Positions 3,679 through 7,703 of a DNA stretch of 32,241 bases are shown in pieces (position 1 is the first letter of the stretch; each line of letters opens with the position of its first letter). Position numbers and translations under genes: made by a program. The notes under the pieces were generated by a model that was not told the origin of the DNA, ran no database searches, and was given only the letters and a program-made list of their open reading frames with translations. The stretch is from Bacteroidota bacterium (GTDB lineage Bacteria > Bacteroidota > Bacteroidia > Bacteroidales > UBA7960): assembly GCA_007693555.1 (NCBI GenBank), contig REDJ01000145.1, positions 1-32,241 of the forward strand, given 5' to 3'.

Positions 3679-4956
3679 TCAGTCATTGATTTCTTTTGTG
3701 CAGGCAATGGATGCAATTGTACCGTCGCCCACAGCTGTAGTTATTTGCCGGTATTTCTTGCTTATTACATCACCCACAGCATAAACACCATGTATGCTGG
3801 TACGCATTTCGTCATCTACCTTAATATATCCCCAGTCATCAGTTTCCAATGGATCCTTTATCATATCGGTATTGGGTTTCATACCCACAAAGACAAAAAT
3901 ACCATCTGTTTCAAGTGTTTTTGTTTGCCTGGTTTTTAAGTCTTCCAGTTTTACTTTCATTTTATCAGAACCGTTTTTGTAAAAACCACGGGGTTCATAT
4001 TCAAGCATAACTTCGATTTTTGGATCAGCATAACAGCGCTCCTGGGCAGTTTTATTGGCTGTAAGATGGGGAAGCTGCTGAATCATGGTAATTTTTGATG
4101 CAAATTTGGAAATGAATTCCGATTCTTCAACTGCTGTGTTCCCACCTCCGATAATTACAACTTCCTTATCATGATAATACTTGGCATCGCAGGTTGCACA
4201 GTAGGAAATTCCTTTGCCATAAAACTCCTTTTCACCGTCAATATTCAAATACCTGGGAGATGCACCTGTTGAAATGATGATCTTCTTTGCTTTTATGGTT
4301 TCATACCCATCAATCACCACTTCCTTTTTTATCAGATCCACTGTATTTACATCTACTGCAACTTTAAATTTCACACCGGCTACTTTGGCCTGTTCTGCCA
4401 TGTAGTGTGATAACATATATCCTTTTTGGGGTTCAATAAAACCCGGATAGTTTGATACCTGATGGGTAGTTGTTACCTGTCCGCCGGGCATTCCGGTATC
4501 CAACAGTATAGTATCAATTTTGGCCTGGGCAAGGTAAATTCCTGCGGCCATGCCTCCGGGTCCGGCTCCCAGAACTATGACATCCGTATGTGTAACAACC
4601 CGTTTGATTTTATCCTTTATGCTTTGCACTTTTTCAGGTGGCAACAAATTATCCAGATTACGTATGATGTCAGATTTCCTGATACCTCCGGTCAAAAAGT
4701 CGCCTGTTTGCTTTCCGTTTTTGTAAAACAGCAAAGTGGGTGATGATTTTACTCCCAGTTTTTCTGCAAGTTCACGATTTCCCTGCCTGAACATTTTTAT
4801 AAATCGTACATCTTTACCGTACAATTCTGTAAGGCTTTCAAATTTTGGGGCCAATGCTTCGCAGGGTGGACATTCTGTGGAATAAAAATCCAACACCAGA
4901 TTCTCATTTTCCTTTAATTCTTTTTCAAATTCTTCTTGTTTGATTTCCTCTAACAT
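3679..4956 (-). CDS. Thioredoxin-thioredoxin reductase fusion (Trx N-terminal)
   Basis: The protein has 425 residues. Residues 1 to about 105 form a thioredoxin domain with active site CPPC (C29-C32, preceded by E rather than W) and the cis-proline at 73 (KSSPTLLFY). Residues from about 122 form a low-molecular-weight thioredoxin reductase: FAD motif GAGPGGMAAGIY (130-141), redox pair CATC (253-256), nucleotide motif GGGNTAVEE (270-278) and FAD motif GVYAVGDV. The domain order is the reverse of the known mycobacterial TrxR-Trx fusion. In the second nucleotide-binding motif, where NADPH-dependent enzymes carry HRRxxxR, this protein reads QQLPHLTA (293-300), so the arginines that hold the 2'-phosphate are absent. 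NADH or another donor is therefore possible. It is monocistronic, with a candidate -7 box at 5013-5020. Confidence 0.92.
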   Translation of the reverse strand: MLEEIKQEEFEKELKENENLVLDFYSTECPPCEALAPKFESLTELYGKDVRFIKMFRQGNRELAEKLGVKSSPTLLFYKNGKQTGDFLTGGIRKSDIIRNLDNLLPPEKVQSIKDKIKRVVTHTDVIVLGAGPGGMAAGIYLAQAKIDTILLDTGMPGGQVTTTHQVSNYPGFIEPQKGYMLSHYMAEQAKVAGVKFKVAVDVNTVDLIKKEVVIDGYETIKAKKIIISTGASPRYLNIDGEKEFYGKGISYCATCDAKYYHDKEVVIIGGGNTAVEESEFISKFASKITMIQQLPHLTANKTAQERCYADPKIEVMLEYEPRGFYKNGSDKMKVKLEDLKTRQTKTLETDGIFVFVGMKPNTDMIKDPLETDDWGYIKVDDEMRTSIHGVYAVGDVISKKYRQITTAVGDGTIASIACTKEIND

Positions 4957-7267: not shown

Positions 7268-7294
7268 ACCGCAGAGACGGAGAGAAACAGAGTT
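7268..7294 (+). repeat. Left copy of an inverted repeat flanking the GxxExxY gene
   Basis: A 27-bp purine-rich segment containing GCAGAGACGGAGAG and ending CAGAGTT matches the reverse complement of 7736-7762 at 21 of 27 positions by eye. It begins 3 bp after the biotin carrier stop codon and precedes the GxxExxY start. This is consistent with a terminal repeat of an inserted cassette. Confidence 0.65.
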
Positions 7295-7316
7295 GCGCAG
7301 AGAAAAAATTTGTAAT

Positions 7317-7703
7317 ATGAATAGAGAAGAGCATAATATTTTAGGCGGAGAGATATTAGATGCTTCTATTGTTGTTCACAGAGAAATGGGACCTGGATTA
7401 ATGGAATCTGTATATCATCAATGTCTTTTTAGAGAATTGAATTCAAGAGATATAATTTGTAAAAGTGAAGTATTTCTGCCATTACATTATAAAGGTGAAA
7501 AACTTGATAAGACCTTTAAGATTGACCTTCTGGTGGAAGGGGAGATAATTATCGAACTTAAAGCTGTTGAAGCTATTTTGCCGGTTCATGAAGCTCAGAT
7601 TATTTCATACCTAAAACTGGCAAATAAAAAACTGGGATATCTCATTAATTTCAACACTCCACTATTAAAAGATGGATTCAAAAGATTTGTAAATAACTTT
7701 TAA
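7317..7703 (+). CDS. GxxExxY family protein
   Basis: This 128-residue protein carries the family motif GLMESVY inside MGPGLMESVYHQCLFREL, then FLPLHYKGEKLDKTFKIDLLVEGEIIIELKAV, where the D...E-x-K pattern (KIDLLV, IIIELKAV) resembles PD-(D/E)XK nuclease-like cores. The C-terminal QIISYLKLANKKLGYLINFN is also typical. The family is widespread in Bacteroidota and other environmental bacteria and its function is not established. The ATG at 7317 is preferred over a TTG at 7293, because the upstream codons overlap the flanking repeat and add nothing conserved. The gene is more AT-rich than its neighbours and sits between the biotin carrier and carboxyltransferase genes, framed by inverted repeats, which suggests insertion by transfer. 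Confidence 0.9.
   Translation: MNREEHNILGGEILDASIVVHREMGPGLMESVYHQCLFRELNSRDIICKSEVFLPLHYKGEKLDKTFKIDLLVEGEIIIELKAVEAILPVHEAQIISYLKLANKKLGYLINFNTPLLKDGFKRFVNNF

Follow-up and report, generated by a model that had tools for sequence, protein, structure and literature searches.

What does a thioredoxin fused to the front of a thioredoxin reductase (a Trx-TrxR fusion) do, and from which donor does it draw its electrons, when the arginines of the HRRxxxR motif are missing from its reductase? This question is raised by an open reading frame (ORF) of the window, by which we mean the whole 32,241-nucleotide stretch of DNA analyzed here. Translation of the minus-strand frame is uninterrupted, and the plus-strand frame carries several stops. 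As the initial annotation had it, the thioredoxin domain precedes the reductase: the Pfam Trx match is followed by a Pyr_redox_2 match at residues 125-412 (196.8 bits against a cut-off of 26.1). The CPPC site with a glutamate before it, the CATC site, and the GGGNTA motif were likewise read correctly from the translation (Table 1). Alignment to E. coli TrxB also bore out the replacement of HRRxxxR, its HRRDGFR pairing with QQLPHLT such that the three arginines correspond to Q294, L295, and T299.

Table 1. Position of the fusion gene and its domains and motifs in the window
Feature	Position	Strand	Basis
Trx-TrxR fusion gene, 425 aa + stop	3679..4956	-	single open frame; recovered as G000:C19:3682-4956
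Thioredoxin domain, residues 4-102	4651..4947	-	Pfam PF00085, 71.9 bits (cut-off 23.5)
Trx active site CPPC, residues 29-32, Glu28 before it	4861..4872	-	CPPC in 41/45, CAPC in 4/45 distinct fusions
Reductase domain (FAD and nucleotide domains), residues 125-421	3694..4584	-	Pfam PF07992; TIGR01292 below cut-off; model compared with solved TrxRs
Reductase redox site CATC, residues 253-256	4189..4200	-	45/45 distinct fusions
Dinucleotide pyrophosphate motif GGGNTA, residues 270-275	4132..4149	-	GGGN(T/S)A in 45/45
QQLPHLTA, residues 293-300, in place of HRRxxxR	4057..4080	-	alignment to E. coli TrxB HRRDGFR

Neither of two curated families claimed the protein. The NCBIfam thioredoxin reductase model, TIGR01292, gave 312 bits against a cut-off of 343, and the AhpF model matched residues 60-419 at 221.8 bits against a cut-off of 502.9; membership in TIGR01292 or AhpF was therefore rejected. 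A structure model built from 15 sequences had a mean pLDDT of 83, with residues 159-181 mostly below 50, and its reductase part matched solved TrxRs with Z scores of up to 29.3 (5mh4, rmsd 4.2, 296 residues aligned). The stretch of approximately 120 residues ahead of the reductase holds one Pfam Trx match only. Since the same genome also encodes a canonical TrxB with HRRDELR, besides several thioredoxin-like proteins, the fusion is an addition to the canonical reductase and not its replacement.

The unusual motifs are properties of a family. We collected 45 distinct end-to-end fusions (43 plus 2 more, with L060 and L085 dropped for an inner stop). All 45 carry an acidic residue before the thioredoxin site (Glu in 44, Asp in one), and all 45 lack Arg at each of the three HRRxxxR arginine positions; one fusion, L027, has a single Arg at a neighboring position (HQFDRFQ). 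Because these motifs are conserved across fusions, the window gene is not an assembly error. A genome scan returned 24 loci, and at 22 of these a near full-length relative with 56-84% identity was present; the record titles of the 22 name Bacteroidales, Bacteroidetes, or Sphingobacteriia in 20 cases and Deltaproteobacteria in two. A 44-row tree grouped the 29 fusions in a single clade (support 100/99) that excluded canonical TrxB and a set of stand-alone reductases. The same tree was unusable for judging kinship with AhpF, whose end branch measures about five changes per column. We also considered whether the unfused reductases of HQF type in relatives are split forms of the fusion and rejected this, as they form their own clade and their small neighbor lacks CxxC.

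These unfused reductases belong to a second redox cluster seen in Bacteroidales relatives (L076, L077, L078, L080-L083, and L060/L085, with names assigned by eye). It consists of a thioredoxin-like ORF of 117-140 aa from stop to stop, with GRMGPMC and no CxxC, and a stand-alone HQF-type TrxR; some copies have a second Trx-like ORF and a GroES-like ORF, and several have a CRP-type regulator nearby.

The absence of the HRRxxxR arginines is not in itself new, as thioredoxin reductases without HRR are already known. Preference for NADH has been measured for T. maritima TR and D. vulgaris DvTR3, according to passages of PMC5627308, and for T. acidophilum TR, according to passages of PMC6262447; for other HRR-less reductases these passages give ferredoxin, F420, or an unknown donor. 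In PMC5627308, as far as its passages on motifs go, the DvTR3 group retains the GGGxxAxE motif, which has degenerated in the NAD(P)H-independent TRi, and conservation of the pyrophosphate site is lower in CpFTR and MjDFTR. The combination of a lost HRR and a retained GGGxxAxE-type motif, by which an NADH-type TR can be told in that source, is the one we found in the fusion, and the degenerate nucleotide motif of ferredoxin- or F420-linked reductases was seen in none of the 45. The QQLPHLTA of the fusion also resembles the QNLPYLTA of Thermosipho africanus TrxR (7jyp). We looked for a compensating Arg in the aligned stretch of the window protein and saw none, and no acidic residue was found in place of the lost arginines. 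NAD-binding folds typically carry such a residue. Because HRR-less reductases with measured NADH preference exist and the pyrophosphate motif is retained, NADH is plausibly the likeliest donor, with NADPH still a candidate. That the electrons come from ferredoxin or F420, without any nicotinamide nucleotide, seems quite unlikely to us: HRR is absent from ferredoxin- and F420-linked reductases too (PMC5627308, in part), and the fusion falls short of the TIGR01292 cut-off, but GGGN(T/S)A is kept in 45/45, whereas CpFTR and MjDFTR conserve the corresponding site less well and TRi has it in degenerate form (same source).

The gene neighborhood pointed to a possible function. At all 13 loci examined outside the family of the window genome (5 + 8), an ArsM-like methyltransferase gene and a radical SAM/SPASM gene lie near the fusion, and all 13 also hold a conserved short ORF ending in AQCCAKx(S/T/A)xxxxGCHD. 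Gene order within this cassette varies, the fusion coming first in L101 and L103 (one genus), and insertions occur (a DUF1847 gene in L096; extra genes in L028, L098, and L099). The genome of the window itself has the genes for methyltransferase, peptide, and radical SAM protein side by side at C55:18937-21184, with the peptide between the other two, and the fusion elsewhere, on C19. Within the own family, synteny is conserved around the fusion, which is flanked by a carboxylase cluster on one side and by RlmH, DUF4783, and an SLC13-type gene on the other, as judged where the fetched stretch was long enough and with the exception of L021, in which RlmH and DUF4783 gave no match.

Several smaller observations concern the surroundings of these genes. 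A small ORF on the plus strand of the window (7293-7703), presumably of the GxxExxY type, lies between the BCCP and carboxyltransferase genes; by tblastn it occurs at the same place in some relatives (L008, L009, and L014) and not in others. Two distant genomes have a DUF1847 gene inside the cassette or close to it (L096:5282-5836 and L102:9055-9501). A small membrane protein adjoins the methyltransferase at L098:451-702 and L099:299-556; that of L099 is DUF6132 by Pfam, and that of L098 is alike by eye. An ORF of the own genome that resembles the DUF6132 protein by eye (L005:1182-1466) is found beside thioredoxin genes on another contig.

To describe the peptide, we listed the small ORFs found between the methyltransferase gene and the radical SAM gene at 21 loci (13 from other families and eight from the own family). 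One conserved ORF was present in 20; at the 21st locus, L027, the peptide is encoded as well, from a start codon that overlaps the methyltransferase gene at its end. Peptide length is 31-49 aa across the 13 loci from other families, with 30 or 31 aa in L101 and L103 depending on the choice of Met. Across 23 aligned peptides the start and AQCCAK...GCHD are invariant, including three cysteines in the core; the pattern that collected these 23 fixed CC, GC, and the stop, which means that invariance at those places is partly built in, and the listing at the 21 loci carried no such restriction. Codons of the ten invariant core residues (23/23) agree at their first two positions and differ at the third, so selection acts on the protein sequence of the peptide. 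A looser pattern gave matches in cassettes only, within 799,422 bases of collected loci (overlaps included). The peptide profile hit with E <1e-13 in exactly the 26 of 59 relatives that have the radical SAM gene, with one strong match in each, and produced two additional weak matches; the five genomes of L024 and L026-L029 hold one copy each. When three peptides were scanned, NCBIfam gave no family and Pfam none above its cut-off, and the match of one of them to BTK (Pfam E 0.025, below the cut-off) was taken as chance. In these loci, a small conserved ORF under protein-level selection lies beside a putative maturase gene, which is one of the features by which a RiPP system is recognized.

The radical SAM protein has the CX3CX2C motif and the C-terminal SPASM-type cysteines, invariant in an 11-row alignment, and Pfam Radical_SAM was found in the four of four cassette proteins scanned. 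The best curated matches of these four were RiPP maturases, with top scores of 145-163 bits against cut-offs of 525-600. By sequence, the closest solved relative is CteB (5wgg); a low-confidence model (mean pLDDT 65) aligned with 5wgg over residues 4-415 (Z 15.2, rmsd 5.5, 351 aligned). In this model the N-terminus (residues 8-78) forms three strands followed by helices, and a sequence search with the N-terminus alone returned no useful match. The methyltransferase, 208-227 aa long in 13 aligned proteins, had as its best curated match the arsenite methyltransferase PRK11873; the two proteins scanned scored 185.8 and 196.3 bits, short of the cut-off of 263. Set against CmArsM, its profile conserves all of C72, C174, and C224, which are integral to arsenite binding in the CmArsM work consulted in part (PMC5552862); SCG, SNC, and ECWAGA occupy the triad positions of the own-genome protein. 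A Cys-bearing C-terminus is present in 12 of the 13 and missing from the own-genome protein.

To describe the fusion as a self-contained disulfide reductase, as the initial annotation did, is to miss the main point, which is that it is co-inherited with the methyltransferase-peptide-radical SAM cassette. Among 59 relatives including the own genome, 26 have the fusion (three of them, G010, G033, and G040, as matches cut short), 26 have the radical SAM gene, 24 have both, and 31 have neither (Fisher p 4e-12, a value that ignores kinship). The fusion occurs without the radical SAM gene in G010 and G021 (83% and 73% complete), and the reverse holds for two relatives (88% and 92% complete); a search for the fusion in G004 and G005 did not find it. 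G022 has the methyltransferase only. The 24 relatives from outside the own family, each of a different family, comprise three with both genes, 21 with neither, and none that is discordant. In a sample of the phylum, the fusion (E up to 1e-100) was present in six of 395 genomes, the own genome included, and the radical SAM gene (E <1e-190) in the same six and no other, apart from three further weak matches (1e-66 to 1e-71); up to four first-look candidates per genome were scored in this search and in that of 377 genomes below, which makes the absences less sure.

The cassette recurs in a second phylum, that of the genome of L029, where the radical SAM gene was found with E up to 1e-60 in 14 of 377 genomes. 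We collected 14 loci from 12 of these genomes, G454 being L029 already and G642, a fragment, being left out. Of the 14 loci, 13 have the methyltransferase, 13 the peptide (L161 extends up to a contig end), and 11 a one-gene fusion. Genome G651 holds the methyltransferase-peptide-radical SAM-fusion set three times (L154, L155, and L156). At L167, a thioredoxin with ECPPC and a related HQF-type reductase are encoded by two adjacent genes, with the radical SAM gene on the other strand; this locus shows the split state of the fusion. The fusion is not obligatory for the cassette: it was sought and not found in the whole genomes G477 and G614, whose completeness is not stated and both of which have the cassette radical SAM gene, suggesting that a general thioredoxin may sometimes substitute for it. 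A search of the whole genome G642, whose radical SAM gene is a fragment at a contig end, did not find it either.

We consider it somewhat probable, at roughly 60%, that the fusion serves an undescribed four-component RiPP-like cassette as its dedicated dithiol reductase, because of gene adjacency, co-inheritance, the conserved peptide, and the recurrence in a second phylum. Its partners would be a short precursor peptide and two enzymes, an ArsM-like SAM methyltransferase and a radical SAM/SPASM maturase. Electrons would pass from NADH, the presumed donor, through FAD and the CATC site to the CPPC of the attached thioredoxin and from there to a disulfide in one of the cassette components. As targets, the three cysteines of the peptide core, the As(III)-type Cys triad of the methyltransferase, or both would be likeliest. 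Trx systems support arsenic methylation. The peptide cysteines would need to be free thiols for modification, and a maturation step of that kind agrees with the location of a reductase gene next to those of the modifying enzymes. Several observations speak against a dedicated reductase, however: some genomes with the cassette yielded no fusion, the own-family fusion is unlinked from the other three cassette genes, the methyltransferase and radical SAM proteins score far below their curated cut-offs, the own-genome methyltransferase lacks the Cys-bearing C-terminus, and no acidic residue stands in place of the lost arginines.

The unlinked gene, in conserved synteny with metabolic genes, would suit a general NADH-linked thioredoxin system, that is, a second housekeeping reductase tied to the cassette indirectly, for example through shared anaerobic or metalloid-rich habitats. 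HRR-less reductases that prefer NADH do exist in anaerobes (passages of PMC5627308), and two cassette genomes yielded no fusion. We nevertheless think this unlikely, given adjacency at 13/13 other-family loci and at 12/14 second-phylum loci (counting the split pair), the close co-occurrence of the fusion with the radical SAM gene, and the canonical TrxB and several thioredoxin-like proteins that the own genome already has. Even less credit, in our view, is due to an AhpF-like peroxiredoxin reductase, a one-Trx-domain analogue handing NADH electrons to a peroxiredoxin: its domain order would be that of the NADH-dependent AhpF (PMC12288474, in part), the AhpF model does match residues 60-419, and the own genome has AhpC/TSA-family proteins and gave no AhpF-like match in the reductase searches. 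What makes it very unlikely is a score of 222 bits against a cut-off of 503, one Trx domain in place of two Trx folds, and co-inheritance with the cassette; no peroxiredoxin gene was recognized beside the fusion in the loci read, where most neighbors carry no annotation.

The direction of the reaction could also be reversed, the fusion forming a disulfide in the finished peptide rather than reducing one. TrxR-like flavoproteins serve as oxidases of dithiol natural products (GliT, HlmI, and DepH), and the peptide core offers three invariant cysteines. We hold this to be highly improbable, although the evidence against it, namely a dinucleotide motif kept in 45/45 and a relay from flavin through thioredoxin to substrate that suggests reduction, is weak. 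Returning to the fusion as a dedicated reductase, one extension would be that the cassette makes a ribosomal, metalloid-carrying peptide: arsenic, or an element like it, would be handled by the peptide cysteines and the ArsM-like triad, the radical SAM protein would fix this element or a linked group covalently, and the fusion would supply the NADH-driven thiol reduction required for metalloid methylation and by the peptide thiols. We rate this as quite improbable; if true, it would mean an organo-metalloid peptide of ribosomal origin, served by a redox chimera built for the purpose.

Literature searches for Trx-TrxR fusions of Trx-first order, and for a cassette of fusion, ArsM-like protein, radical SAM protein, and peptide, returned no matching work. 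Among the keyword matches listed for the selenoproteome review PMC13188914, the terms ArsM, radical SAM, and RiPP occur separately and the cassette is absent; those listed for the RiPP paper PMC10352776 include no 'thioredoxin', 'arsen', or 'CCAK'. Judged by the literature searched and by NCBIfam and Pfam scans of three peptides, the cassette thus appears undescribed.

Its parts nonetheless have known counterparts. The TrxR-Trx fusions of M. leprae and plants (NTRC) carry both redox modules in one chain, as here, with the domains in the opposite order. Against these, the "reversed order" of the initial annotation stands; against AhpF it does not, as this NADH-dependent enzyme also places its Trx-type module before a TrxR-type module (PMC12288474, in part), and domain order was therefore dropped as the chief novelty. 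AhpF differs in having two Trx folds with one redox Cys pair and AhpC as its partner. The NADH-preferring T. maritima TR, DvTR3, and T. acidophilum TR share with the fusion the loss of the 2'-phosphate arginines, and the DvTR3 group shares the GGGxxAxE-type motif (PMC5627308, in part), but these enzymes stand alone, whereas the fusion has an N-terminal thioredoxin and belongs to a cassette. T. africanus TrxR 7jyp, similar in motif, is likewise a stand-alone reductase. The cassette methyltransferase has C72, C174, and C224 in common with CmArsM and differs from ArsM in being shorter, in falling below the PRK11873 cut-off, and in adjoining a peptide and a radical SAM gene. With the RiPP maturase systems (CteB/SCIFF, CefB, TIGR04463, and PapB), the cassette shares a short Cys-bearing peptide beside a radical SAM/SPASM protein, and the strands and helices at the N-terminus of this protein in the low-confidence model may form a leader-binding domain; the cassette differs in that none of the four proteins scanned reached a family cut-off and in its partners, an ArsM-like methyltransferase and a Trx-TrxR fusion. 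What appears to be new is that such a fusion belongs to a cassette together with a peptide, a radical SAM/SPASM protein, and an ArsM-like methyltransferase. The AQCCAK...GCHD peptide, conserved alongside the same partners in two phyla, marks an apparently undescribed RiPP-like system. If our reading is correct, radical SAM peptide chemistry would extend to a partner methyltransferase with an arsenic-type Cys triad, and the reason for a Trx-TrxR fusion with an altered nucleotide site would be a private reducing line for peptide maturation.
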